A stretch of DNA of 44,975 nucleotides from Candidatus Zixiibacteriota bacterium (GTDB lineage Bacteria; Zixibacteria; MSB-5A5; GN15; FEB-12): contig CP070674.1 in the NCBI GenBank assembly GCA_020351995.1, forward strand, positions 1,564,072 to 1,609,046, read 5' to 3'. Position numbers and translations under genes: made by a program. Shown here piece after piece: positions 7,452 through 44,567 of this stretch. The notes under the pieces are model-generated. The model worked only from the letters and a program-made list of their open reading frames with translations, was not told the DNA's origin and ran no database searches. Positions within the stretch are counted from its first letter, which is position 1. Each line of letters begins with the position of its first letter.

Positions 7452-7477
7452 TTAGCTAAAAATTTGAACAGATCAAC

Positions 7478-7491
7478 GGAATGATTATTGC
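7478..7491 (+). promoter_or_regulatory. Candidate sigma54 promoter for the first pilin gene
   Basis: GG at 7478-7479 and GC at 7490-7491 are separated by exactly 10 bases, and the -12 half reads TTGC. The -24 half lacks the usual CAC after GG, so this is a weaker match than the promoter of the second pilin. Transcription would begin near 7502, about 38 bases before the pilin ATG. Confidence 0.35.
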
Positions 7492-7539
7492 CTCTTTGGA
7501 GGGTATGAGGACTATAATTCTGAAGATAGAGAGGCATAT

Positions 7540-7974
7540 ATGAGGATTATGACCGCCAGGAATGAGAGGGGCTTTACCCTGATCGAATTGATGATCGTGG
7601 TGTGCATTATTTCGATACTGGCCATGCTGGCCATCCCGCGTTTCATGCAAGCCTCGACCAAAACCAAGCAGAGCGAGGCCAAGACGATCCTCAAGCAGAT
7701 CTATGTTAATCAACGTACTTTCCGACAGCAATCGATGGACAACACTTATTTTGTAACCGCGGAGGTTGCTTCCAAGGATAACCCGGACGCCTTCAGGGAC
7801 ATCTGGATACAAGTTATGGCCACATGCCGGTATTCTTTCGAGATCGCGGCTACACCGAACACCTTTGTGGCTACCGCGCGCGGGAACATCGATGATGATC
7901 CTCTCGAAGATGTCTGGACAATAACCGACGCGGGTATACTGGACAACCCCACTAATGACGTCGAAGAGAGTTAA
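7540..7974 (+). CDS. Type IV pilin (PilA-like), copy 1
   Basis: A 144-residue prepilin. A short basic leader ends in Gly, followed by the class III signal FTLIELMIVV, with Glu at position +5 of the mature chain and a long hydrophobic alpha1 helix. Prepilin peptidase would cut between Gly and Phe, and the first residue would be methylated. The C-terminal part shares with the second pilin the pattern G-N-[IL]-D-D-D-P then WTI and a terminal NP/ND stretch, so the two are paralogues. ATG 7540 has GAGG 6 bases upstream. The gene lies between the PilR-like regulator and a strong terminator and may have its own sigma54 promoter. Confidence 0.9.
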   Translation: MRIMTARNERGFTLIELMIVVCIISILAMLAIPRFMQASTKTKQSEAKTILKQIYVNQRTFRQQSMDNTYFVTAEVASKDNPDAFRDIWIQVMATCRYSFEIAATPNTFVATARGNIDDDPLEDVWTITDAGILDNPTNDVEES

Positions 7975-7998
7975 GACCAAGCGCCAGAGTGATATGAG

Positions 7999-8022
7999 AC
8001 CCGCCCTTCGGGGCGGGTTTTC
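7999..8022 (+). terminator. Rho-independent terminator after pilin 1
   Basis: An 8-base perfect stem (ACCCGCCC at 7999-8006 with GGGCGGGT at 8011-8018) closes a TTCG tetraloop and runs into TTTTC. It lies 25 bases after the pilin stop codon and separates pilin 1 from pilin 2 transcription. Confidence 0.9.
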
Positions 8023-8092
8023 TATTGTCCGGGCGGAATCCGGGTTAGCGCATAAGGAGTTTTTCCCTGGCCCGGGAAGAAGGGAATCCATC

Positions 8093-8120
8093 GCATTTTG
8101 CCACAGTTTTGGCATTTTGC
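8093..8120 (+). promoter_or_regulatory. Candidate activator-binding site upstream of the pilin 2 promoter
   Basis: TGCCA (8099-8103) and TGGCA (8110-8114) form an inverted repeat with a 6-base spacer. The same segment has a direct repeat GCATTTTGC at 8093-8101 and 8112-8120 (19-base period). It lies about 135 bases upstream of the -24 element, the usual distance for NtrC-family enhancer sites. That the PilR-like protein binds here is inference. The rest of the 357-base gap 7975-8331 shows only the terminator before it and the sigma54 promoter and ribosome-binding site after it. Confidence 0.35.
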
Positions 8121-8248
8121 GTATGCTTGCGGGGAGTCAAGTTACTGAAAAGTATGGGATTACATCCACACCGGGCATTTCGGGTACGAGTAGCTTGGAT
8201 TTAGGTCTGTTAGCGACGTCACAAGATGTTCAAAAAAAGACGCGCTAA

Positions 8249-8263
8249 AGGCACTGTGTTTGC
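8249..8263 (+). promoter_or_regulatory. Sigma54 (-24/-12) promoter of the second pilin gene
   Basis: The sequence AGGCACTGTGTTTGC fits TGGCACRNNNNTTGCW well: GGCAC at 8250-8254, TTGC at 8260-8263, with GG and GC exactly 10 bases apart. Predicted start of transcription is about 8275, leaving a leader of some 57 bases before ATG 8332. The presence of a sigma54 activator gene two genes upstream supports it. Confidence 0.8.
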
Positions 8264-8331
8264 GATAACAGGGTACGAAGAAGAAAACTAACCGGACCAT
8301 TAACCTTTATCAAAACCTGTAGGAGGTTAAG

Positions 8332-8754
8332 ATGTTTTCAAGGATTCACAATCGCAAGGGTTTCACCCTCATCGAGTTGATGATCGTTGTGGTCATCATT
8401 GGTATTTTGGCCGCTCTGGCTATCCCGCGCTTTATGCAGGCCACTACCAAGTCGAAGCAGTCGGAAGCCAAGCAGCTTCTGAAGCGGATTTACACCATGC
8501 AGCGTGCTTATCGCCAGGAGTATAACACCTATGGTGACAATGGTGTAATCATTCCGGCTTTCACCGGTGGAAGATTCCAGCAGATAGGTGTTGAGGTTCA
8601 GTCAACTGCTCGCTATCAGTATGCAATGGTGGCCGCCATCGACGCTTTTACGTGCACCGCCACGGGTAACCTTGATGACGACCCGACCATCGATACGTGG
8701 ACAATTGACCATACTGGATTGCTCAACAACGATCCTAACGACGTCACCGGTTAA
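8332..8754 (+). CDS. pilA: Type IV pilin (PilA-like), copy 2, probably the major pilin
   Basis: A 140-residue prepilin with a 9-residue basic leader ending in Gly, then FTLIELMIVVVIIGILAALA, Glu at +5 and a long alpha1 helix, the canonical type IVa pilin start. The C-terminal half carries ATGNLDDDP and DTWTIDHTG, shared with copy 1. A strong ribosome-binding site (AGGAGG, 5 bases before ATG), its own sigma54 promoter and a strong terminator suggest high, regulated, monocistronic expression, so this is the likelier major pilin. Assembly genes (pilB, pilC, pilQ, prepilin peptidase) are not in the window. Confidence 0.92.
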   Translation: MFSRIHNRKGFTLIELMIVVVIIGILAALAIPRFMQATTKSKQSEAKQLLKRIYTMQRAYRQEYNTYGDNGVIIPAFTGGRFQQIGVEVQSTARYQYAMVAAIDAFTCTATGNLDDDPTIDTWTIDHTGLLNNDPNDVTG

Positions 8755-31280: not shown

Positions 31281-33452
31281 ATGTTTGGCGTTAAAGACAT
31301 ATCGGTCAGTTTTTTGTCCGGGTCACCGTTGGTTGTCTGGCTGACGGCGGCCCTGCTGGTGCTGCTGGCCGTGTACCTGTACCGGCGCACCAACCCGCCC
31401 CTGCCGGTATATATGAAAGTCATTCTGGCGGTATTGAGGATCATTGCGGTGCTGGCGCTGGTTTTCACTCTGGCCGAGCCGGTGATCGGTTTTACCCGGC
31501 AATTCGAACGTGATTGCAGGGTTGCTGTATTAATCGACGTGTCGGGAAGCATGGACAAAACCGAAGCCGGAAAGAAACGGAGCGAGCGACTGGACTCACT
31601 TATGGCATCGCCGGATTTCAATGGGCTTAAGGGAAATGCCGAGGTCAGTACCTTTTTCTTCGGGGAAAACCTGAGTCCGGAGGAAGCCGAGGTGAAACGT
31701 GACAAGACGGCTCTCGGCGACGCCCTCGAACTTCTGCAAACGAGGCAAATAGCGGAACCTTCCGATTACTGGATCCTTTTCAGTGACGGTAACTCCAACT
31801 CCGGGCAGCAGCCGCGACGGGCAGCCGGTCGATTGACCCAGCCGGTCGTGGCCGTCGACATGGCCTCCGATACCGGTTCTTTTGATATCGGCATTGCCGA
31901 GGTGAATTACAATCCGGTGCTGTTCGTTGGCCAGCCCACCGAGATCAACGTGAGACTGACCTGGCAGAATGTATCGGAACGGAATTTGCCGTTAGAGCTC
32001 TCCGATTCGGTCCGAACGGTGGTTCAGAAGACCTTTCAGATAACACAGGCCGAAGGTCTCGGTGAGGTTGCGCTTTCTTATACGCCCTCAGAACCGGGTC
32101 AGAAGATTCTGCGGGTTCAGATCCCGACCGACGCGAAGGAGGAAAACCCGGGGAACAATCAGCGGTCGTTTTCGGTGAAGGTTCTGAAAAGCAGGCTTCT
32201 GGTTCTCATGGTCACCGGGCAACCTGATTACGAGATCGGGTTTCTCAAGAGGCTTCTGGAGCAGTCGGAAAAATATCAGGTCGAACTGGTTGTCACGGGT
32301 TCTAAATCGGGCAACCTGGTCGGGCGGATACCGTCGCGACAGACGGAAATGAACCGTTATGACCTGATAGTTCTGCACGATCCAGACCCGAAGGGCCTGG
32401 AGTCCCGGCGCGCGGTGCTGGAATCGTATCTGTCTGAAAGAGGTGGAGCGGTCTGGGTACTGATGGGTGGGCGGTTCAGCGAGCGAGGTCCGGTTGGCTG
32501 GTTCAACGACCTGCTTCCCTTCTATCCATCCTTTCGGCATTCGATAGAGTATGCCGGTTTTCGGGGCGAACCGTCGGAGAGTCACCTGTTCCATCCGGCC
32601 GTCCGACTGGCCGACGGCCCCACGGATATTCGGGAGGCCTGGGCGTCGCTGCCGCCTTTTCAGGCGCTGGTAAAGTGCGATCGAATCCACCCGGAAGCGG
32701 TGGTTCTGGCTCGAGCGGCTTTTGCCCGGCGGGATCAAAGCAAATACCCAATTCTCGGCTATCGGCGATTTGGGCCCGGTAAGTTGATGGCGTCGGCGGC
32801 GCTTCCGTTCTGGACCTGGGGATTCGTCAATCTTGGTTTCGGGGAGGATCCCGGTGACTATGCCGATTTTGCGGAGGGTACCATGAGCTGGCTTACGGTA
32901 AGTGATGATCTCGAACCGATTCGGATAAAGCCGGAGAAGGACGTGTTCCATCGCGGCGAAGTCGTTCGCTTTGACGGTTTTGCCTTCGACCTGGGCTTTC
33001 GTCCCATTCCTGGGGTAACAGGTACGATCGGCCTGATCAGTTCGAAAGAGCATCGTTCATATGAGACCGATCTGGTCGCGAAGGGTGGGGGTGCTTACCG
33101 GGGGGAACTATTCAATGTCTCTCCGGGCTCATATACCTATCGGGCGATTTTTGAGAAAGATGGGCGGACGCTCAAAGAATCAGTTGGCTCGATCGTGGTC
33201 GAGACATTCTCGGTAGAGGAAGTTGACCAGGGTGGTGACCCGGCCACACTCGCGGCGGTATCGCGTCTTTCCGGAGGCAGCTACTTTCGTTTCGGTCAAT
33301 TCGCCGATGCCATTGCCGCGCTTGATCTAACGCCGGTCGCCATAAATGAAAAGGCCGAGATCACTCTTTTGAACAAGCTGTGGCTTCTTTTCATTTTCAT
33401 GCTGGCTGTCTGTATCGAGTGGCTGGTTAGAAAAATTAATCAGTTGCTGTAG
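31281..33452 (+). CDS. Large membrane protein with von Willebrand factor A domain
   Basis: A 723-residue protein. Two transmembrane segments lie at about 15-34 and 46-65, a VWA domain follows with an intact MIDAS start Asp86-x-Ser88-x-Ser90 (LIDVSGSMD), then Ig-like beta-rich regions (KILRVQIPTDAKEENPGNN, a CARDB-like piece), a region with a glutamine-amidotransferase-like fold (residues about 310-430: LLVLMVTGQPDYEIGFLKR, WVLMGG), further beta domain and a final transmembrane helix near 700-716. This is the architecture of the BatA-like/DUF1194-type VWA membrane proteins of FCB and Planctomycetes. It probably acts in the cell envelope. It ends over the tail of the opposite gene. Confidence 0.8.
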   Translation: MFGVKDISVSFLSGSPLVVWLTAALLVLLAVYLYRRTNPPLPVYMKVILAVLRIIAVLALVFTLAEPVIGFTRQFERDCRVAVLIDVSGSMDKTEAGKKRSERLDSLMASPDFNGLKGNAEVSTFFFGENLSPEEAEVKRDKTALGDALELLQTRQIAEPSDYWILFSDGNSNSGQQPRRAAGRLTQPVVAVDMASDTGSFDIGIAEVNYNPVLFVGQPTEINVRLTWQNVSERNLPLELSDSVRTVVQKTFQITQAEGLGEVALSYTPSEPGQKILRVQIPTDAKEENPGNNQRSFSVKVLKSRLLVLMVTGQPDYEIGFLKRLLEQSEKYQVELVVTGSKSGNLVGRIPSRQTEMNRYDLIVLHDPDPKGLESRRAVLESYLSERGGAVWVLMGGRFSERGPVGWFNDLLPFYPSFRHSIEYAGFRGEPSESHLFHPAVRLADGPTDIREAWASLPPFQALVKCDRIHPEAVVLARAAFARRDQSKYPILGYRRFGPGKLMASAALPFWTWGFVNLGFGEDPGDYADFAEGTMSWLTVSDDLEPIRIKPEKDVFHRGEVVRFDGFAFDLGFRPIPGVTGTIGLISSKEHRSYETDLVAKGGGAYRGELFNVSPGSYTYRAIFEKDGRTLKESVGSIVVETFSVEEVDQGGDPATLAAVSRLSGGSYFRFGQFADAIAALDLTPVAINEKAEITLLNKLWLLFIFMLAVCIEWLVRKINQLL

Positions 33453-33747: not shown

Positions 33748-33946
33748 AATATCCCCTCTTGTTTCCGTAAGTACGGCGCCCTCCCTAACCGATTGGGAAG
33801 CCCCCAGATTCGCAGACCCGATCAGCCAGGCGGAGATTTATTGATTGTCTGATATGGGGTCAACGGTACCAGCAAATATTGTCTTTATTGAAACCGCCGT
33901 CAACATTATATTTCACCAATTAACGGACACCACGGAGGTTTCAAGA

Positions 33947-35089
33947 ATGAATATAGCGGTGATAGGTGCCGGGCTTATGGGTCGTGCTGCCGTGTATGAT
34001 CTTTCACGAATAGAAAGTGTCAAGAAAGTCGGCGTTTTTGATATCGATGAGCCCCTGGCCAGGAAGATTGCTGACGCCTATGGCAATAATATCGCCGAGG
34101 CAGGATGTCTGGATGCCGGTGACGAGCCAGCTGTTGCCGAACGACTGGCCCAGTACGACGCCGCTGTCTCATGTGTTACTTATAAATACAATCCGGGTTT
34201 GACCCGGGCCGCCATCGCGGCCGAATGTCATCTGGTTGACCTGGGGGGCAACAACGATGTTGTTCAAACTCAACTGCATATGAACGACGAGGCCGAGCAA
34301 GCCGGTATTATCGTAATTCCGGATTGCGGCCTGGCCCCCGGGATGGTGGCGGTAATGGTATCAGATGGCGTTTCGCGGTTCGACCATGTGCGGTCTCTTA
34401 AGATTCGAGTAGGTGGTCTACCGCAGTCGCCTCGCCCGCCCTTGAATTACCAGATGGTATTTTCGGCCGAGGGTTTGCTCAACGAGTACTGGGAGCCGTG
34501 TGTTATTCTGGAAGATGGCAAGAAGAAAATCGTCAATCCGATGACGGGGGTCGAATCACTGGAATTTGACGGCGTTGGCCCGCTCGAGGCGTTTTACACT
34601 TCGGGTGGCACCTCGACCCTCCCTGATACCTATGAAGGCAAGATAGATTTTCTCGATTATAAGACTATCCGTTACCCCGGGCATTGCCAGCTTTTCAAGC
34701 CCATGCTTGAGATCGGTCTGGCTTCGCGACAGGAGATCGAGGTTGAGGGGCAGAAGGTCCGGCCGAGGGCGGTTCTTCGGGCAGTTCTGGACAAAAATCT
34801 GACGCTGAATGACCTCGATATGGTACTCGTCCGTCTGACGCTGGAAGGGGAAAAAGACGGCAAAGACAAGACAGTCGTTTATGAGATCGTTGACCGTCAG
34901 GATACAAAAACGGGCCTTACGGCCATGATGCGGACGACCTCGTTCCCGGCGGCCATTATCGCGTGGATGGCGGCGGATGGGCAAATAACCGAACGTGGCT
35001 GTAAACCGCAGGAAGAGGTTGTCCCGCCGTCGCTGTTCTTGCCACAATTGAAGAAACGGCGCATAAATCTTGTCATTAAGGAATCTTAG
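33947..35089 (+). CDS. Saccharopine dehydrogenase-family oxidoreductase
   Basis: A 380-residue enzyme starting at ATG 33947, with GGAGG 8 bases upstream; the longer frame (33845) lacks such a site. An N-terminal Rossmann fold (MNIAVIGAGLMGRAAVYDL) is followed by the family block GLAPGMVAVMVSDGV and a C-terminal domain with KIRVGGLPQSPRPPLNYQM. Relatives include saccharopine reductase, lysine 6-dehydrogenase and carboxynorspermidine synthase; the G-L-P-Q start of the second domain is shared by the lysine 6-dehydrogenase-like group, but I would not assign the substrate. TTTATT and TATATT with a 17-base spacer upstream (about 33890-33920) could be its promoter. Confidence 0.8.
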   Translation: MNIAVIGAGLMGRAAVYDLSRIESVKKVGVFDIDEPLARKIADAYGNNIAEAGCLDAGDEPAVAERLAQYDAAVSCVTYKYNPGLTRAAIAAECHLVDLGGNNDVVQTQLHMNDEAEQAGIIVIPDCGLAPGMVAVMVSDGVSRFDHVRSLKIRVGGLPQSPRPPLNYQMVFSAEGLLNEYWEPCVILEDGKKKIVNPMTGVESLEFDGVGPLEAFYTSGGTSTLPDTYEGKIDFLDYKTIRYPGHCQLFKPMLEIGLASRQEIEVEGQKVRPRAVLRAVLDKNLTLNDLDMVLVRLTLEGEKDGKDKTVVYEIVDRQDTKTGLTAMMRTTSFPAAIIAWMAADGQITERGCKPQEEVVPPSLFLPQLKKRRINLVIKES

Positions 35090-35124: not shown

Positions 35125-35859
35125 TTACCAGAGGTCGGCAGGGAAGGTAATGCTAAGTTTGGTCGTGCTGGCGGGTGCTACCGAGACATTGTACGTCGCG
35201 GTATCGTTTTCCGCTACGTAGACTATTTGCAGAGTATGGGCGCCGATAGGGACCCCCGCAAAAGTGAAGTTCCCATTGGGGCGCGGATAGACTGTGCTGG
35301 TTGTTGTCCCGCCGCTTCCGTCGGGGTACACCAGCGAGATTGTCAAGGAGGTGGTATCTTCGGTGCCGGGTACGTCGTGGTTGGCATCGACGACGAAGCC
35401 AGTGACGGTGTTGGACAGCACTGCGTCGCTGCTTCTGGCAATCAACTTATCGATATTTGACCCGGAGCCGGTGGACCTTATCAGAGTGTCCTGATACGTG
35501 TACTCGAAACCCCAGGCGTCCTTCTTGAAATCATCTTCATTGTAGCCGGTTCCCATGTAGGGGCCGTCCCATGTGGAATATCCTCCGGGGTTAGTAACCA
35601 GCGCGCCGAGGCTGTCCGGTAGTGCTCCTACATCGCCAACATATCCGAAATCGGTACGTGTGCCACTGGAATAGACATTAGGATTGCCGACTATGGCAAA
35701 GACCAGTTGCTCCATCTCCTGTTTGGTCTGTTGGTACCGGGCAGTTTCGATGGAAGTCGACATCTTCTGAGTTGCCACGGCAGCGATGATGCCGATTATG
35801 ATAATCACGATGGCGAGTTCCACCAGTGTCCAGCCTGAATTCTTGCGAAGTCTGTGCAT
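35125..35859 (-). CDS. GspG-like large pseudopilin, array member 6 (short form)
   Basis: A 244-residue prepilin-like protein. A 9-residue leader ending in Gly precedes WTLVELAIVI (Glu at +5) and the hydrophobic alpha1 helix. Residues about 60-115 repeat the core shared by all six genes (FGYVGDVGALP, LGALVTNPG, STWDGPY, KKDAWGFEYTY), which resembles the GspG signature (YPT..GL..L...W.GPYL..DPWG). A carboxypeptidase-regulatory-like beta domain follows (GFVVDANHDVPG, then NFTFAGVPIGAHTLQIVY), and the protein ends there at DLW. Start at 35859: GGGAG is 7 bases upstream and the ATG overlaps the stop of member 5 (TAATG). Last gene of the six-gene operon. Confidence 0.85.
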   Translation of the reverse strand: MHRLRKNSGWTLVELAIVIIIIGIIAAVATQKMSTSIETARYQQTKQEMEQLVFAIVGNPNVYSSGTRTDFGYVGDVGALPDSLGALVTNPGGYSTWDGPYMGTGYNEDDFKKDAWGFEYTYQDTLIRSTGSGSNIDKLIARSSDAVLSNTVTGFVVDANHDVPGTEDTTSLTISLVYPDGSGGTTTSTVYPRPNGNFTFAGVPIGAHTLQIVYVAENDTATYNVSVAPASTTKLSITFPADLW

Positions 35860-37046
35860 TACGGATCTCCCGTGCATGGGCCGGTGTTGAAGCTGAAGGT
35901 GGAGCCATCGGAGAGTTCGACGGTAATGTCAACATTGTTCATCGCAACCGCCGCCCCTCCCGTTTCCTGCGTGTCACGGAATTGCTCGACGTCGATCGTG
36001 ACGGTTTCCCCGCCGTCCGCCCACTTGACATCGTTGGGCTCCTGGAAGACCGCCCAGTCGCCGGAGGCGGCGCGGCTGGGATTGCCGTTGAAGGCCGCCT
36101 GTCCGTTCCACTGCACATTCTGATAATAGGATACCGGGCTGGTGACGTAGTCGAGTTTGATTGCTGTTACGGAGCTAGGTACACCGCAAGTGTTTCGAAT
36201 CTGAAACCGTAGCCCGTCGCAGTCGACACCGCCGATAGTCTGAGCACTACCAGCGACATATTCAAAGCATCCTAAAACCGGCGGGACCTCGGACCAGGGG
36301 CTGAAGGTCAGAAAATACTCCTGGTATAAAACCGAATTGGGCAATACTGAGACAAACCGGTGCAGGGTGTCATCAATGGGCATATATACTATCCTGATAT
36401 CATGGTTACCGATCGGTATCGAGTCGAACTCGAAGTATCCGCTGGGTTCAGGATGAGTGGATTTGGTCGCGGTCGAGCCCACACCGTTGGGGATGGTAAG
36501 CAGAATGTCGACAGTGTCGCACTCGTCACTTCCGGGCGGGGCGCCATCGCGGTCGAGAATTATCCCGGTAACCTTATTGCGGAGCAGATCATCCTCGGAG
36601 TTGGCGAGCCTCCGGACTATGTCGGATCCGGAGCCTGAAGACGTAATCTCGATCCCGCCGGTGTAAGTGTAAGCCACGCCCCAGGCATCTTCTTTGTAAT
36701 CGTCAGTGATCTGCTGAAACCTTCGGCTGACATAAGGTCCGTTCCAGGTGGTGTAACCGGATGGCTGGGTATAGAGTGAGTCCAGCCCAGCCGGTAGCGA
36801 ACCCACATCGCCCACGTAGCCGAAATCGGTCCGGACGCCGTTGTTTTCCAGCTCAGGGTTGCCGCAGATGGCCCAGGTGAGTTGTTCCATTTCCCGTTTG
36901 GTTTCCTCGACCCGACCGGTTTCGGTGACGGTTACGACCGACTTCATCGCTATGGTCACCAGGATGGCCGCAATAATTATCACCATGACGACTTCGACTA
37001 TCGTGAAGCCGCTATTATTGATCTTTCTTTTGGTTTCACTAATCAC
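35859..37046 (-). CDS. GspG-like large pseudopilin, array member 5 (long form)
   Basis: About 395 residues. The prepilin start is NNSG then FTIVEVVMVI with Glu at +5. The shared core follows (FGYVGDVGSLP, TTWNGPYV, KEDAWGVAYTY), then a beta domain (GIILDRDGAPPG, FEFDSIPIGNHDIRIVY) and the extra C-terminal domain of long members (CDGLRFQIRN, YYQNVQWNG, VELSDGSTFSFN, final Cys). No ATG is available. GTG 37046 is preferred over GTG 37055 because it gives a polar 13-residue leader and total length like its paralogues. It overlaps member 4 by 8 bases. In its core (WAICGNPEL) it is closer to members 1 and 6 than to 2-4. Confidence 0.82.
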   Translation of the reverse strand: MISETKRKINNSGFTIVEVVMVIIIAAILVTIAMKSVVTVTETGRVEETKREMEQLTWAICGNPELENNGVRTDFGYVGDVGSLPAGLDSLYTQPSGYTTWNGPYVSRRFQQITDDYKEDAWGVAYTYTGGIEITSSGSGSDIVRRLANSEDDLLRNKVTGIILDRDGAPPGSDECDTVDILLTIPNGVGSTATKSTHPEPSGYFEFDSIPIGNHDIRIVYMPIDDTLHRFVSVLPNSVLYQEYFLTFSPWSEVPPVLGCFEYVAGSAQTIGGVDCDGLRFQIRNTCGVPSSVTAIKLDYVTSPVSYYQNVQWNGQAAFNGNPSRAASGDWAVFQEPNDVKWADGGETVTIDVEQFRDTQETGGAAVAMNNVDITVELSDGSTFSFNTGPCTGDP

Positions 37047-38232
37047 AATAACCACTCATAGCTACGTCAAAGGTTGAGCCGTCAGAAAAAGTGACGGTGA
37101 ATGTCGTGGTCGACATGTCGACTTTGTTACCGGTTCCCGACTCCACGTCAATGAATGTCTCGACCTCGATCTTACTCGTACCACCGTTTGCTACGGTTTC
37201 GGTGAGCGTGAATGTTACCGTATCGCTCGATCCGTTACGCGGGGAACTGCCGGCAAATTCGTAATCACCGTCGGCGCCATAATCGAAAACCTGGTAGTAG
37301 GCAGTTGTCGAATACTCCAGAACGACCCAGTCGATTTGGATCGAAGCACCGCTATTGTTCGCGAGCCAGAAACTTACACAGTGGCAATACCCGCCGGCAC
37401 CGTAAGCCGTGTCGCTTCCCTCGACGAAAGTCAGGCCGACGCAGGCGCTCGTGTCCGGTTGTGAGAAATAGCTGGTGTCGAAATTATATCGGGCCAGCTG
37501 GTCGTCGCCGTTGCGCGGTACGACCGTGACATAGCGCGTTAAAGTATCGACCTCCGGGGTGTAGATGACATGTACCTGGTGTCGGCCAATCGGCAGCGAG
37601 GTGAGCGAAAACCAGCCGCTGTCATCGGGGTGATACGAATTGGTATCGAGGCCGCCGGTACCATCCGGGTAGATGATGACCACGTCAATATCAGCTGCGT
37701 CGTCGGGAGTCGGGAGAGAGTCATTGATATCCCTGATGAGTCCGGTGATGCTATTTAAGAGCAGATCATCGCTACTTTCGGCGAACTGCTTGACGATGCT
37801 GGAGTCAGAGCCGGTAGAAGTTATTGTAACGCCGCCGGTGTAGGTATAGTCAACTCCCCAGGCATCTTTTTTGAAATCGTTATCAGCGGTGTTGAAGGAA
37901 GGCGGAATGTACGGTCCGTGCCAGGTGGAGTAGCCGGGATTAGTGACCAGGGCGTCAAGATTGGGAGGCAAGGCGCCAATATCGCCGACATAGCCGAATT
38001 CGGAACGTTCGCCGCCGGCTACGGCCATGATCGATGGATCGCCGGCAATGGCTTTGGCCAGCATATCCATCTCGCGCTCGGTTTCCACCTGCCGGGCGTC
38101 TTTCAAAAGAGCACTCATCGATTGCAGAACCAGCGAAGCGAGGATACCAACAGCCACGATTATGATGGCCACCTCTATGAGGCTGATACCTTTTTCGCCC
38201 TTCGCTCTGTTGACAATGCGCTCGATGTTCAT
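37039..38232 (-). CDS. GspG-like large pseudopilin, array member 4 (long form)
   Basis: A 397-residue prepilin-like protein. The 15-residue leader ends EKG, then ISLIEVAIII with Glu at +5. Core: FGYVGDIGALPPNLDALV, STWHGPYIPP, KKDAWGVDYTY. Beta domain: GLIRDINDSLP, WFSLTSLPIGRHQVHVIY. C-terminal domain: FVEGSDTAY, CHCVSFWLANNSG, TAYYQVFDY, FTVTFSDGSTFDV and a final Cys. GGGAG lies about 9 bases before ATG 38232. It is 24 bases after member 3. Members 2, 3 and 4 share AIAGDPS in the alpha1-core junction and are the closest to each other. Expected to be processed by prepilin peptidase and built into a pseudopilus-like fibre or tip. Confidence 0.85.
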   Translation of the reverse strand: MNIERIVNRAKGEKGISLIEVAIIIVAVGILASLVLQSMSALLKDARQVETEREMDMLAKAIAGDPSIMAVAGGERSEFGYVGDIGALPPNLDALVTNPGYSTWHGPYIPPSFNTADNDFKKDAWGVDYTYTGGVTITSTGSDSSIVKQFAESSDDLLLNSITGLIRDINDSLPTPDDAADIDVVIIYPDGTGGLDTNSYHPDDSGWFSLTSLPIGRHQVHVIYTPEVDTLTRYVTVVPRNGDDQLARYNFDTSYFSQPDTSACVGLTFVEGSDTAYGAGGYCHCVSFWLANNSGASIQIDWVVLEYSTTAYYQVFDYGADGDYEFAGSSPRNGSSDTVTFTLTETVANGGTSKIEVETFIDVESGTGNKVDMSTTTFTVTFSDGSTFDVAMSGYCD

Positions 38233-38256
38233 ATCAGACTTCTCCCGCGGTTACGG

Positions 38257-39438
38257 CTATGGACAACTCGGTGTCGTAAACTCGATTATTGAACCATCCG
38301 AAAATTCGATGGTAAAATCCCTGCTACCCATATTCACTGAGCTTGCCGATCCCGTTGACTTGTTCTTAAATGCTTCGATTACGATGGTAAGGGTGTCACC
38401 ATCAACGACAGTCTGGTCATCTATATCGGCCAATTCACCGGAACCGTTTCTCGTTGAACCGGCAATAAACACGACGGTACCTCCCCAGCGGATGGTCTGG
38501 TAATAAGCGGTGGAACCGGACCACGTCGCGGTCATACTCTCCACGAGTACGTCCTCGCCGGTGTTGTTGGCGAGATCGAAGGTCACATCCTCACATTCAG
38601 GTCCGTCGGCCACGGCGGTACCTTCAACGAGGGTCAGCATGCTGTCGCTACCGCCGCCGGAGGTATCCTCGGTGGAAAACCAGGCCGAGGCGAAATTGAA
38701 ACGCATATACTCATCACTGCTGTGACGCGGCAGGACGACTACGCAACGGCTCAGAGTATCCACCTCCGGCGTATAGATTGCTTCTATGTAGTGACGGCCG
38801 ATGGGAATAGAATCGAGGGAAAATTCGCCGGCGGAGTCCGGGTGGTACACTTTGGTTGTTACGCTTCCGGCGCCGTCGGGGATGGTTATCTCGACATCGA
38901 TAGAATCGTCGAAAACCGGACCGGGTACCGAGTCGTTGACATCACGGATTAGTCCGCTGACGGTGTTGTAAAGGATGTCGAGCGAATCAATGCTGCCGCG
39001 ATGTCGCATCGGTGAACCGGAACCGTGGGATTCGATGTCGAGCCCTCCATTGTAAGTGTATTCCACACCCCACTCATCGGTCTTAAAGCCGTTTATGAGT
39101 TCCGGAGGAATGTAGGGTCCTTTCCAGGTTGAATAACTGCCGGGGTTTTCTACGAGAGCATCGAGGTCGGGCGGAAAGGCTCCGATATCGCCCACATAGC
39201 CAAAATCGGCGCGCACTCCACCCGCTACCGTCATCAGCGACGGGTCTCCGGCTATGGCCTTTATTATGGCTTCCATTTCGTGCTCCGTTTTCCTCTTTCT
39301 GGCATTTTCAATGCCAGGTGTCATAGATTGCATCGCCACGGCCATCACGATAGCGATTATCACGACCAGCATTGTTATTTCAACAAGGCTGATCCCGCGG
39401 TCATTTCTAATGTCGCGCCGCTCGCCACGCGTTCTCAT
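38257..39438 (-). CDS. GspG-like large pseudopilin, array member 3 (long form)
   Basis: A 393-residue prepilin-like protein: 15-residue basic leader ending NDRG, then ISLVEITMLVV with Glu at +5. Core: FGYVGDIGAFPPDLDALVEN, STWKGPYIPP, KTDEWGVEYTYN. Beta domain: GLIRDVNDSVPG, FSLDSIPIGRHYIEAIY. C-terminal domain: LVEGTAV, CEDVTFDLANNTG, STAYYQTIRWGG, FTIEFSDGSIIEF and a penultimate Cys. The core lysine in KKDAWG is KTDEWG here. GGGG is about 7 bases before the ATG. It lies between members 2 and 4 with gaps of 44 and 24 bases, clearly in one operon. Confidence 0.85.
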   Translation of the reverse strand: MRTRGERRDIRNDRGISLVEITMLVVIIAIVMAVAMQSMTPGIENARKRKTEHEMEAIIKAIAGDPSLMTVAGGVRADFGYVGDIGAFPPDLDALVENPGSYSTWKGPYIPPELINGFKTDEWGVEYTYNGGLDIESHGSGSPMRHRGSIDSLDILYNTVSGLIRDVNDSVPGPVFDDSIDVEITIPDGAGSVTTKVYHPDSAGEFSLDSIPIGRHYIEAIYTPEVDTLSRCVVVLPRHSSDEYMRFNFASAWFSTEDTSGGGSDSMLTLVEGTAVADGPECEDVTFDLANNTGEDVLVESMTATWSGSTAYYQTIRWGGTVVFIAGSTRNGSGELADIDDQTVVDGDTLTIVIEAFKNKSTGSASSVNMGSRDFTIEFSDGSIIEFTTPSCP

Positions 39439-39482
39439 ACCTAGCCCCCTGCGGTTTGATCAAATAAGTCGTCCTAGCCATG

Positions 39483-40667
39483 TTAGTTACATTCCCCCAT
39501 GGTTACATCGAACGTTGAGCCGTCGGAAAACAGCACTGTGAATGTCGTCCCGGACATGTCAGGTTTGCTTCCGTTGCCCGTCGGCGTACTGCGGAACAAC
39601 TTCACCTCAACCGGAACGGTCCAACCGTAAATTATCGTCTGCGGATTATCGAAGACGGCGGTGTCGCCGCTGCCGTTGCGAGGTGTGGAGTTGTTCCAGA
39701 CCCTGGCCCCTGCCCACCAGACTTCCTGATAGTAAGCGGTCGGGCTGGGCCAGGTTAGTTCGATGCTTGTTACTTCGACATCCTCCCCCGTGTTATTCCT
39801 GATCTCAAAGCTAATGTTGTTGCAGTCCGTCCCTGAGCCGAATACCGAGTGTGAGCCTTCAACCAGAGTCAACATGCTATCACCGCCAAGATCGGCCGAA
39901 AAGTAATTCTGGGCGAAATTGAAGCGGAGCACATCATCGGTCTTGTTGCGCGGTATTATCTGGGAGTACCGGATAAGCGTATCCAGTTCCGGCAGAAAAA
40001 TTGCCCTCATAAGGTGTTTGCCAACCGGGAGTGAGTCGATGGTGAATTCTCCCGACGAATCGGGCTGATAGACTTTCGTCTGCAGACTGCCCAGGCCATC
40101 GGGAACGACAATCTCAATCCGCGCCGAATCCATCCATGCCGACCCCGGGAGGGAATCGGCGGCATCGCGCACCTCGCCTATCAGTGTGTTATCAAGATAG
40201 TCTGAGGTACGGCTGTTGCTGCCTCTCCGGATGGTACTTCCCGAACCGTGCGACACTATCTCCAGAACACCGTTATAGGTGTAGGTTTTCCCCCAGGCGT
40301 CGGTTTTGAAGTCGTTCCCGTCGTTGGCGAATCCGGGCGGCAGGTAAGGTCCGTCCCAGGTGGAGTACCCTCCGGGGTTTTCCACCAGCGCGCCCAGATC
40401 GGGCGGGAAAGCCCCCACGTCACCCACGTACCCGAAATCGGAACGCGCTCCACCGGCGACGGACATTTGTGACGGATCCCCGGCGATGGCTATCTGTAGC
40501 ATTCTCATCTCGCGTTCGGTTTCTCTTTCGCGACTCTGCTTCAAGCTGTGTGTCATCGACTGCATAACTGCCGCGGCCAGAATGGCGATACCGACCATGA
40601 TAATGATCACCTCAACCAGACTGATGCCGCGCTCTTGTTTTCTTCTACCTATCTTTTTCTGACTCAT
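39483..40667 (-). CDS. GspG-like large pseudopilin, array member 2 (long form)
   Basis: About 394 residues. A strongly basic leader (KKIGRRKQERG) precedes ISLVEVIIIMV with Glu at +5. Core: FGYVGDVGAFPPDLGALVEN, STWDGPYLPP, KTDAWGKTYTYN, the member closest in wording to GspG. Beta domain: GEVRDAADSLPG, FTIDSLPVGKHLMRAIF. C-terminal domain: LVEGSHSVF, CNNISFEIRNNTG, TAYYQEVWWAG, FTVLFSDGSTFDV and a near-terminal Cys. ATG 40667 is preferred to GTG 40670; AGGTG lies just before it. It is 67 bases after member 1. Confidence 0.85.
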   Translation of the reverse strand: MSQKKIGRRKQERGISLVEVIIIMVGIAILAAAVMQSMTHSLKQSRERETEREMRMLQIAIAGDPSQMSVAGGARSDFGYVGDVGAFPPDLGALVENPGGYSTWDGPYLPPGFANDGNDFKTDAWGKTYTYNGVLEIVSHGSGSTIRRGSNSRTSDYLDNTLIGEVRDAADSLPGSAWMDSARIEIVVPDGLGSLQTKVYQPDSSGEFTIDSLPVGKHLMRAIFLPELDTLIRYSQIIPRNKTDDVLRFNFAQNYFSADLGGDSMLTLVEGSHSVFGSGTDCNNISFEIRNNTGEDVEVTSIELTWPSPTAYYQEVWWAGARVWNNSTPRNGSGDTAVFDNPQTIIYGWTVPVEVKLFRSTPTGNGSKPDMSGTTFTVLFSDGSTFDVTMGECN

Positions 40668-40734
40668 CACCTGATCAGGTGTCCAGCCCCGAAGTCAGTC
40701 ATGTTGTTAGCCCCGCTGCCCCCACCAAATCCTC

Positions 40735-41496
40735 CTACCAATAATTCTGTGAAAAACTAATTTCCGTGTAAAACGAGTCCTTCGGATACACGACCACCTT
40801 GCGAAAAAGAGTATCATAGGTGGGATCATCCTCCCAGATAACCAGCAATTGGTGATGCCCCACCGGGACCGATTCAAAGCTGGCCAGTCCATTACCGGCC
40901 GGACTGCTGGAAGCAGTTGTGTCGGACCCGGCCCCATTGGGATATGTCAATTCAAGCGTCACCGACCCGGCGCTGCCGCCGGGTGGAGTGTTATTGACAT
41001 CGGTAATCAGCGCCTGCACCACGTTCGACAGGAGATCACTGGTTGAGTAGCATACTTCCCGGGCAATCGAGGTTCCGCCCCCGGTGGATATTATACTGTC
41101 TCCGGTATACGTGTACTCCACCCCCCAGGCGTCGTACTTGAACTCGGACTCGGCTCCGCCGCTTGAAGCATAGAAATCATCGCGGATGTATGGCCCATCC
41201 CAGTTAGCGTAACTGCCCGGGTTGGTAACCAGGTTATCCAGGCTGGCCGGAAGCGCCCCGACATCTCCGACATAACCGAAATCCGTTCGGACACCACCGG
41301 AGATCAGATTGGGGTTACCGCAAATGGCCCAGGCGAGCTGATCCATCTCTTGCCTGGTTTCCTCAACCCGCGAGACTTCGACGGTCCCCCGCATCGAGCG
41401 CATCGAAACGGCGGCCACGATACCGATAATGATTATCACGGCTAGAAGCTCAAAAAGCGAGTAGCCGTGGGCTCTTTGGAAACTCCGAATGCTCAT
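40735..41496 (-). CDS. GspG-like large pseudopilin, array member 1 (short form)
   Basis: A 253-residue prepilin-like protein and the first gene of the array. The 11-residue leader ends in HG, then YSLFELLAVII with Glu at +5. Core: FGYVGDVGALPASLDNLVTN, NWDGPYI, KYDAWGVEYTY. Beta domain: ALITDVNNTPPGG, LASFESVPVGHHQLLVIW. It ends at SQNYW, the point where the long members continue into their C-terminal domain, so short forms bracket the four long forms. No clear ribosome-binding site precedes ATG 41496; a candidate promoter and an inverted repeat lie just upstream. Confidence 0.85.
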   Translation of the reverse strand: MSIRSFQRAHGYSLFELLAVIIIIGIVAAVSMRSMRGTVEVSRVEETRQEMDQLAWAICGNPNLISGGVRTDFGYVGDVGALPASLDNLVTNPGSYANWDGPYIRDDFYASSGGAESEFKYDAWGVEYTYTGDSIISTGGGTSIAREVCYSTSDLLSNVVQALITDVNNTPPGGSAGSVTLELTYPNGAGSDTTASSSPAGNGLASFESVPVGHHQLLVIWEDDPTYDTLFRKVVVYPKDSFYTEISFSQNYW

Positions 41497-41681: not shown

Positions 41682-41996
41682 CTAAATATCGTCTTCGAAA
41701 AGGGGGGCTTTTTCGGGGATACGGACAAGCAGGTCCGAGGTTACCCTGCACTGGCAGGCCAGACGGGAATTAGCCTGCAGATTCTCGACCTCGTCGAGCA
41801 TATCCTCTTCATCCTCGGACATCTCGTTGAGGGTATCGTAACCTTCTTCGATGTAAACGTGGCAGGTGGAGCAGGCACAGTTGCCGCCGCAGTTGTGGTC
41901 GATCTTCACGTTGTTATCCAGCGCGGCGTCGAGCAGAATCTTTCCCTCCGGGACTTCAACTTCCGCCCCCGAAGGCAAGAATTTTATCTTAGGCAT
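41682..41996 (-). CDS. fdx: [2Fe-2S] ferredoxin, ISC type
   Basis: A 104-residue adrenodoxin/ISC-type ferredoxin. Cluster ligands: Cys36, Cys42 and Cys45 (CGGNCACSTC, C-x5-C-x2-C) and Cys81 in SRLACQCRV. The block HVYIEEG and the acidic EDEEDMLDEV helix are typical. It carries electrons for Fe-S assembly or other redox enzymes. ATG 41996 begins the usual family N-terminus (MPKIKFLPSG); the longer frame opens with an unsupported GTG. It is third in the order iscA-type carrier, DUF2480 protein, ferredoxin. Confidence 0.9.
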   Translation of the reverse strand: MPKIKFLPSGAEVEVPEGKILLDAALDNNVKIDHNCGGNCACSTCHVYIEEGYDTLNEMSEDEEDMLDEVENLQANSRLACQCRVTSDLLVRIPEKAPLFEDDI

Positions 41997-42063
41997 CGGG
42001 TTTCCATCTTGAGTCTGTCTTTGGTCGATAAGATAGACGCCGGCGTGGGATTTTTCAAGTTTA

Positions 42064-42315
42064 TTACTCACTCTTATACACCGCTACGTTATCGTGTTCG
42101 TTGCCATAGTAAATGGACCGTGCATGCGGGATGAGTTTCGCGGTCAGGTGCATCAACGCCCACGGTGGTAGAAAGGTAGAGGAACACCCGCGCACAAGGA
42201 CCCGCTTGCCCTTAAAAGGGCTCCAATCCCGGCGCTCAACACTGCGCAAAAAGAACTCCTGTCTGAAGACGTTATTTTCCAGGAACTCTGATGGATCGAC
42301 TATCTCGAAAGCCAT
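42064..42315 (-). CDS. DUF2480-family protein (short form)
   Basis: An 83-residue protein whose C-terminal two thirds match DUF2480 proteins known mainly from Bacteroidetes: RRDWSPFKGKRVLV, a conserved Cys-Ser in RGCSSTFLPPWALMHLTAKL, and a final YYGNEHDNVAVYK. The family is usually about 150-170 residues, so this one lacks much of the N-terminal part. Function unknown. Its placing between an IscA-type carrier (gap 3 bases) and a ferredoxin supports a link to Fe-S metabolism. No enzymatic motif is obvious apart from the conserved cysteine. Confidence 0.7.
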   Translation of the reverse strand: MAFEIVDPSEFLENNVFRQEFFLRSVERRDWSPFKGKRVLVRGCSSTFLPPWALMHLTAKLIPHARSIYYGNEHDNVAVYKSE

Positions 42316-42318
42316 GCG

Positions 42319-42678
42319 TTAACAGGTGAAAGAACTTCCGCAGCCGCAGGAGCGGCGGGCGTTGGGGTTGCTGAAATGAAATCCGCCGCCGAGCATACCG
42401 CCCTTGTAGTCGACAACCGATCCGGTCAGGTAGGGCAAGGCTCGCCCGTCGATAACGACTTTCAGGCCGTTGTAATCAAACTGCCGGTCGTGTTCGCCCG
42501 GGTTGTTATCGAAAGCCATTACGTATGACATTCCGGAGCAACCCCCGGCCGCAACTCCGATTCGCAGAAAGAGATTGGGATTCGATTCCTGCTGGAGTAA
42601 GCGCTTGATTTCGGATATGGCCGTATCGGTAATAGTAACGGCGGGATCTTTATGGGAAGAAATTGAGTTGTCCGACAT
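42319..42678 (-). CDS. IscA/HesB-type iron-sulfur cluster carrier (ErpA-like)
   Basis: A 119-residue A-type carrier that accepts Fe-S clusters and hands them to target enzymes. The three conserved cysteines are Cys47 (GGCSGMSYVM), Cys111 and Cys113 (SCGCGSSF); the chain ends one residue after a Phe-Thr pair with an extra Cys119. GGTGAG lies about 7 bases before ATG 42678. It leads a minus-strand trio with DUF2480 and ferredoxin and is divergent from an Rrf2 regulator with cysteines, which probably controls it. Assignment as IscA, SufA or ErpA is not possible from sequence alone. Confidence 0.9.
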   Translation of the reverse strand: MSDNSISSHKDPAVTITDTAISEIKRLLQQESNPNLFLRIGVAAGGCSGMSYVMAFDNNPGEHDRQFDYNGLKVVIDGRALPYLTGSVVDYKGGMLGGGFHFSNPNARRSCGCGSSFTC

Positions 42679-42975: not shown

Positions 42976-43389
42976 ATGAGACTGTCACGCAAATCAGATT
43001 ATGCTTTGAGGGCTGTGCGACACATTTCCTCACTGCCGAAAGGGAAGCTGGGCTCGATAAACTCCGTCAGTGAGGCTGAGAACATCCCCAGGGAGTTCCT
43101 GGCGAAAATCCTTAAAGACCTTACCCGAAGTGGTATTCTGGTTTCGTATCAGGGTGTAACCGGCGGTTACAGGCTGTCCCGTGTGCCCAAAGACATTACT
43201 TTTCTTGATGTAATAGAGGCCATTGACGGTCCCATTCACCTGAATCTGTGCACCGAGTCGCCCAATTGTCGATGCGAGCAGTACAACAAGTGCCAGATGA
43301 AGGAATTCTGGATGGCACAGGAAAAGATCTTCAAGAGAGCTTTGAGTAAGGAGCATTTCGCCAAGTACAAGAAGGGAAAGAAAAAATAA
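42976..43389 (+). CDS. Rrf2-family transcription regulator (IscR-like, cysteine-containing)
   Basis: A 137-residue winged-helix regulator. The opening MRLSRKSDYALRAVRHI, the recognition-helix region ENIPREFLAKILKDL and the wing GVTGGYRLSR are typical of Rrf2 proteins. The sensory loop has Cys92, Cys98, Cys100 and Cys106, similar to but not identical in spacing with the Cys92/98/104 set of IscR, so it could hold an Fe-S cluster. It is divergent from the IscA-type operon, the usual context for a regulator of Fe-S assembly. The C-terminus is lysine-rich. Confidence 0.88.
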   Translation: MRLSRKSDYALRAVRHISSLPKGKLGSINSVSEAENIPREFLAKILKDLTRSGILVSYQGVTGGYRLSRVPKDITFLDVIEAIDGPIHLNLCTESPNCRCEQYNKCQMKEFWMAQEKIFKRALSKEHFAKYKKGKKK

Positions 43390-43533: not shown

Positions 43534-43682
43534 ATTATATTTTTGCGGAGCCAGATACATCGGATAGGTTTTTTCCGCCGTCCTCAGGCCGTCGCGATGC
43601 AGTTGTCGGGCCGGTCTGGTCAAGAAACTCTCCCGCTCTGGCAGTGTTAGAATAGATGGAAGACCAACAAAGGAGTCTGACA

Positions 43683-44567
43683 GTGTTCGATTTCAATGAT
43701 AAACAGCACAAGGTGAAAGTCGGTCTGGCCGAAATGCTCAAGGGCGGCGTCATAATGGATGTGACCAGCGCCGAGCAGGCAAAGATCGCCGAGGAGGCCG
43801 GGGCGGCGGCGGTTATGGCGCTGGAGAGGGTGCCGTCGGATATCAGGGCCGAAGGCGGGGTGGCCCGGATGGCCGATCCCGATGTGATTGAGGCCATCAA
43901 ACGTGCTGTAACAATTCCGGTAATGGCCAAGTGTCGTATTGGTCATTTTGCCGAGGCGCAGGTGCTGGAGTCGCTCGAGATCGACTTCATCGATGAATCG
44001 GAAGTTTTGACCCCGGCGGATAACAAGTATCATATTAACAAGTGGCCGTTCAAGGTTCCGTTCGTATGCGGATGCCGAAACTTGGGTGAAGCCCTCAGGC
44101 GAATTTCCGAAGGCGCAGCGATGATACGAACCAAGGGCGAAGCCGGAACGGGTGACGTTTCCGAGGCTGTTAAGCATCTGCGTGAGATTGGACTGGCCAT
44201 GAAACAGCTTACGGTGATGAGCCAGGAAGAGCTCTACGGCGCGGCCAAGGAACACCGGGTACCGATAGAACTGGTTCGCATGGTTGCCAAGACGGGTAAA
44301 CTTCCGGTGCCGAATTTCGCCGCCGGCGGTATTGCTACACCGGCTGATGCTTCACTGTGCATGCAACTTGGTGCCGAAGCGGTTTTTGTCGGTTCGGGTA
44401 TATTTAAGTCCGACAATCCCGAGAAGCGGGCCAAGGCAATTGTAGCCGCTACCACGCACTATAAGGATGCCGTGATTGTAGCCGATGCTTCGCGCGGACT
44501 GGGTCAGGCCATGAAAGGCATCCAGGTTACCGACATCCCCGATGAGGAGATACTGCACACGCGGTAG
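43683..44567 (+). CDS. pdxS: Pyridoxal 5'-phosphate synthase subunit PdxS
   Basis: A 294-residue (beta/alpha)8 enzyme that makes pyridoxal phosphate from ribose 5-phosphate, glyceraldehyde 3-phosphate and ammonia. Active-site lysines are in VMAKCRIGH (Lys80-81 region) and [10 protein letters not shown], with [20 protein letters not shown] near the phosphate site. GTG 43683 is chosen over ATG 43656: AGGAG lies 7 bases before it and the length then matches the family (about 290-295). The ammonia-supplying partner PdxT is not beside it, since a terminator follows; it should be elsewhere in the genome. Confidence 0.95.

Follow-up and report, generated by a model that had tools for sequence, protein, structure and literature searches.

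Modular GspG-like pseudopilins in a six-gene array of Zixibacteria, probably minor pseudopilins of a T2SS-like filament machine

What is the role of six large GspG-like pseudopilin genes that stand in a row with no secretion ATPase or secretin beside them? The question arises from a 44,975-nucleotide stretch of a Candidatus Zixiibacteriota chromosome, analysed as a whole and here called the window. A sequence-only reading of it had described a minus-strand tandem array of six paralogues, and the ORF coordinates bore this out: six consecutive ORFs occupy 35125-41496, with the sizes and spacings that had been given. The array comprises P1, three copies of P2, P3 and P4 (Table 1). Taking ATG starts at 40667, 37046 and 35859, the genes are spaced by 67, 44, 24, -8 and -1 bases, and this tight spacing makes a single operon probable, as had been proposed. 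An alternative upstream ATG of P4 would give a protein of 250 aa. Promoter and terminator scans gave no excess of terminators and only weak promoter matches, and no promoter is claimed.

Table 1. Array genes and conserved neighbouring genes, with positions in the window
Feature	Position	Strand	Description
P1	40735-41496	-	Short modular pseudopilin, 253 aa; prepilin helix, GspG-like core, CarboxypepD_reg/TTL domain
P2 copy a	39483-40670	-	395 aa; core, TTL domain, C-terminal beta domain (~264-393); AlphaFold model
P2 copy b	38257-39438	-	393 aa; sister of copy a; own orthologue in L018
P2 copy c	37039-38232	-	397 aa; older P2 branch; own orthologue in L018
P3	35859-37046	-	395 aa (398 from start 37055); core, TTL domain, C-terminal beta domain
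P4	35125-35859	-	Short modular pseudopilin, 244 aa; no C-terminal domain; ends FPADLW
Ferredoxin (Fer2)	41682-42071	-	Conserved on the upstream side of detached arrays; serves as a synteny marker and is not counted among the parts of the system
IscA-like Fe-S biosynthesis protein	42319-42678	-	Synteny marker
Rrf2	42976-43389	+	Synteny marker alongside IscA-like gene
pdxS	43656-44567	+	Synteny marker alongside IscA-like gene
Saccharopine dehydrogenase-like gene	33845-35089	+	Kept downstream neighbour of detached arrays; synteny marker

All six proteins begin with a class III prepilin signal (G^[Y/I/F/W]xxxE and a hydrophobic helix) and align end to end over the prepilin helix, the core and the following domain, with 58 alignment columns invariant. 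The motifs FGYVGD(V/I)G, P..L..L, W.GPY and K.D.WG..YTY are common to all, and an S.G.G...I motif is conserved at the place of the GspG C-terminal-loop calcium site, a likeness of motif only. The N_methyl model was above its cut-off in three of the proteins and weaker in two. Profile searches, named in the earlier reading among the ways to refute its GspG-like cores, agreed with it. TIGR01710 (GspG) was the top NCBIfam match for each protein (E 2e-8 to 2e-4); for two proteins the match spans both helix and core, for the other four chiefly the helix. PF08334 matched every protein of the array (E 1e-4 to 0.026), with two scores above Pfam's cut-off, as well as 33/58 and 23/35 homologues. Judged by these profiles, the likeness of the cores to GspG exceeds chance. 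Membership of the type IV filament superfamily is well supported by the prepilin signals and by the assembly machine encoded in the genome. Since the TIGR01710 scores of 21.5-34.2 bits all fall below the equivalog cut-off of 88.85, the proteins are GspG-like and not GspG.

The prepilin helix and GspG-like core take up residues 1-150 and are followed, at residues ~155-250, by a CarboxypepD_reg-like (transthyretin-like, TTL) beta domain. Its Pfam signal is weak: PF13620 reached E 2e-4 in P4, the window proteins lay below Pfam's cut-off, and at E 0.01 the family was matched by 22/35 P4 proteins and 21/58 long members. A second beta domain with no clear family match (~264-393) is present in four of the six proteins, the three P2 copies and P3, which supports the earlier view of added beta domains on a shared pilus-like base. 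A long helix at 18-63 was seen in the models of both P2 (copy a; mean pLDDT 87) and P4. The modelled TTL domain resembles the regulatory domains of carboxypeptidases M/N/D, with Z of 9.5-10.1 over 79 residues, values only somewhat above background. When the P2 and P4 models were used in fold searches, the only matches were beta-sandwiches that fell on the TTL and C-terminal domains, so these searches have no bearing either way on a GspG fold of the core.

The absence of a secretion ATPase and secretin, which had been taken from the sequence of the window, held for the array's flanking genes and for all window proteins that were scanned; it did not hold for the genome. A machine operon lies at ~399-407 kb on the same chromosome, 1.2 Mb (1.2 million bases) from the array, in the order GspE-GspF-pp1-pp2-PilM-PilO-GspC/B-secretin, encoding a GspE/PilB-type ATPase, a GspF platform protein, a GspG-like pp2 and PilM-like, PilO-like and GspC/B-like proteins. 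Only pp1 and pp2 are found between GspF and PilM; the operon has no GspH, I, J or K gene and no large pseudopilin of its own. A single prepilin peptidase gene is present in the genome, at 378.6 kb. Classed by model scores, the machine is neither a canonical T2SS (GspE, GspF and GspD at 566/630, 316/424 and 192/351 bits, score/equivalog cut-off) nor a type IVa pilus machine (PilB and PilQ at 587/676 and 224/284 bits, score/cut-off), and its ATPase is intermediate between PilB and GspE. The small pseudopilin pp2 can be aligned with the array core over its whole length and ends at the point where the added domains start; a large subunit can therefore be regarded as a pp2-like pseudopilin with one or two outward domains.

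Other pilin-like genes were also recorded. Two small pilin genes (GFTLIELMIVV..., N_methyl) are found in the window at 7468-8754 (+), the second with weak ComP/Pilin_GH matches, and are followed by a 658-aa ORF without a Pfam match. Two minor-pilin-like gene pairs (GLSLLEVLVAM / GFT[LI][IL]E...; L105 6078-7142 and L106 6156-7290) lie elsewhere in the genome and probably belong to its type IV pilus (T4P). Adjoining the machine operon (L102 13143-15966) are genes that, as named from a reading of their sequence, encode an M6-like peptidase with a C-terminal sorting-like domain and a PorV-like protein.

A separate T4P machine is encoded at 2211-2215 kb (PilB/PilT/PilC), and since it and other minor pilins are present in the genome, P1-P4 could make use of it. 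The array proteins would then be minor pilins of the T4P acting as adhesins, and modular adhesive pilins are indeed often carried by T4P (PMC8179133). This account is nevertheless unlikely: the core shows homology over its full length to pp2 of the T2SS-like operon, relatives hold array-family genes within that operon, and 17 of the 19 array-negative genomes described below have an ATPase in the score range of T4P PilB, yet no array.

A scan of named genomes gave 76 loci, nearly all titled Zixibacteria and a few titled Calditrichaeota, Ignavibacterium or FCB (by title only). The loci are of two kinds. Detached arrays, usually of four genes, lie between two groups of genes: pdxS, Rrf2, IscA and ferredoxin to one side, and a saccharopine dehydrogenase-like gene with a 723-aa-type gene to the other. 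At the second kind (~20 other Zixibacteria loci), one to three large genes are inserted in the machine operon between pp2 and PilM. Where locations could be assigned (36 genomes), 16 had a detached array, 20 an in-operon copy and none both, as raw counts that ignore ancestry; detached arrays were concentrated in two families, f1 and f2, with a single further case in an f4 genome. In the window, the 723-aa ORF (31281-33452, +), which adjoins detached arrays in many relatives, has no Pfam match, and an 83-aa protein between IscA and ferredoxin (42064-42315, -) matches only the C-terminal half of DUF2480. At two in-operon loci (L071 11133-11903 and L093 11134-12018), a third large pseudopilin has Thr or Gly in place of Glu at +5, like GspK, and is a possible tip subunit.

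The search of related genomes for the array and an ATPase, which the earlier reading had suggested, showed the two to occur together. The array family was found in 78 of 97 genomes of the phylum, and the machine ATPase in 74/78 array-positive genomes (36/36 + 38/42) vs 0/19 array-negative genomes, raw counts in which shared ancestry is ignored. Four array-positive genomes had no machine ATPase at the threshold. The gap on which this separation depends is narrow: the weakest machine ATPase match scored 521 bits, and the best ATPase matches of the 19 array-negative genomes scored <=500 bits, in the range of PilB paralogues. Together with the in-operon copies, this co-occurrence makes the assignment of P1-P4 to the ~399-407 kb machine well supported at the level of comparative sequence analysis.

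Is the array, then, a bank of interchangeable parts, as the sequence-only reading had considered? On such an account the fibre would be variable or mosaic, with interchangeable subunits or phase-variable cassettes showing different C-terminal domains. The tandem paralogues with their common core are in keeping with it, as are the triplication of P2 in the genus and the tails, which are of varying length and, in a small number of relatives, of differing kind (99/104 join one loose group by single linkage, 5 fall outside). Against this, a 176-protein tree placed every array position in a clade of its own (support: P1 100, P2 100, P3 87 and P4 97) and the in-operon genes in another (98), and the five labels required only four changes, the minimum. 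The order P1-P4 is fixed in detached arrays over the family and the order, with no sign of mixing by gene conversion. P2 alone was multiplied in this genus, each of the three window copies having a separate orthologue in the closest relative (L018). Tyr was found at +1 in 42/42 P1 proteins, and P4 measured 245-251 residues and lacked a tail in 41/41, with an invariant D-L near its C-terminus. Because four orthologous clades recur in fixed order, the array is not a cassette bank of interchangeable variants. Phase-variable cassettes were rejected on the 176-protein tree, and a variable fibre of any kind is very improbable; at the sequence level, the pattern argues for four subunits with fixed roles. 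A core-only tree with pp2 as outgroup did not resolve which is oldest among the in-operon group and P1-P4.

The array is broken up in the two closest named MAG chromosomes, its two parts lying far from each other (L018/L074 and L019/L080). Runs of N at the break could reflect a mis-join or a rearrangement, and the split arrays were set aside as candidate recombination events since the breaks fall at these runs.

The array is best explained, and with reasonable probability, as a set of modular minor pseudopilins of the T2SS-like type IV filament machine at ~399-407 kb, evolved by duplication of the machine's GspG-like subunit and probably forming its tip complex. The single prepilin peptidase would cleave P1-P4 after Gly, and their N-terminal helices would enter the filament as that of pp2 does, by homology. 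The TTL domain, with the C-terminal beta domain in P2 and P3, would reach outward and may contact one another, the secretin, or a ligand, external or periplasmic. That there are four subunits, fixed and not interchangeable, points to a single hetero-oligomeric complex whose likeliest place is the filament tip; P1-P4 would stand in the role of GspH/I/J/K or FimU/PilV/W/X, but built from a GspG-like subunit. The tip assignment is drawn by analogy with modular pilins, the T2SS tip complex and the Bacteroidetes machine. A GspK-like tip subunit is expected to lack Glu at +5; this residue is kept in 6/6 array proteins, which counts against placing them at the tip.

Whether the machine would serve secretion or adhesion is a further question. 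It could be a surface adhesion pilus instead of a protein-secretion system, with P1-P4 as tip adhesins, a reading that departs from the best explanation in the machine's output only. Several affinities point this way, namely pp1 to pilins such as MshA, the secretin to PilQ, the MshEN domain on the ATPase, and PF13620, which in modular pilins already known has been interpreted as a carbohydrate-binding-like fold (PMC8179133). The GspF protein, by contrast, is closest to T2SS GspF, pp2 and P1-P4 are closest to GspG, the operon lacks a retraction ATPase, and a similarly composed Bacteroidetes machine is required for cellulose use (PMC5553014). Adhesion is a serious possibility, though less likely than not.

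Under the preferred reading of P1-P4 as minor pseudopilins, a broader proposal may be put forward tentatively: that Zixibacteria possess a distinct class of type IV filament machine. Its four-part tip complex would have evolved separately from GspH/I/J/K, by duplication of a GspG-like subunit that carried a fused transthyretin-like domain, and the tip genes would have moved out of the machine operon to a conserved site next to iron-sulphur genes. The filament machine is widespread in Zixibacteria, below the curated cut-offs for T2SS and T4aP alike. It would offer a natural case of a secretion-pilus tip set traceable from one machine-operon gene to four specialised paralogues, and such a one-to-four series would make the specialisation of minor pseudopilins testable by comparison within one phylum.

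The earlier reading knew of no described system of this form. That stands for the detached four-part set itself, which was not found described, and not for its general kind, since modular pilins (PMC8179133) and T2SS-like machines of the FCB group (Cytophaga hutchinsonii and Flavobacterium johnsoniae; PMC5553014, PMC6668835) have been reported. A search of the literature on secretion or pili in Zixibacteria gave nothing relevant. As far as could be found, the component parts are known and the four-part set detached from its machine is apparently undescribed.

Modular type IV pilins, exemplified by S. sanguinis PilB and PilC, are a described class of 264 architectures, with pilin-PF13620 among the 15 most frequent, and are proposed to be exposed at the tip (PMC8179133). 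The array proteins share their plan, in which a small pilin module at the N-terminus is followed by additional modules; the first of these is a domain (CarboxypepD_reg/TTL) that is not pilus-specific and whose PF13620 fold is listed there. They differ in being four orthologous modular pseudopilins with GspG-like cores, whose genes form one conserved set at a distance from the machine operon. The T2SS, with GspG as major pseudopilin, has a tip complex of four minor pseudopilins, GspH/I/J/K (PMC6211770). The Zixibacteria system resembles it in its GspG-like core, its ATPase/GspF/secretin machine and the four further pseudopilins of the detached arrays, but all four are GspG-derived, two- or three-domain proteins and not orthologues of H/I/J/K, and none of ATPase, GspF and secretin reaches its T2SS equivalog cut-off. 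The Bacteroidetes T2SS-like machine, which branches away from T2SS (PMC6668835) and in Cytophaga is involved in cellulose use (PMC5553014), is alike in make-up: it is a divergent machine of the FCB group, its genes include those for ATPase, GspF, secretin and GspG together with PilM/N/O/P-like ones, and its minor pseudopilins are hard to spot. In contrast to the Zixibacteria system, the accessible portions of its descriptions (PMC5553014, PMC6668835) contain no multi-gene array of large modular pseudopilins. A likeness in architecture, as opposed to sequence, is offered by CofB/TcpB of the T4bP (as in PMC8179133), large minor pilins that carry two further beta domains and are displayed at the tip of the filament, but which differ in being the product of a single gene and a homotrimer on a T4b pilus.
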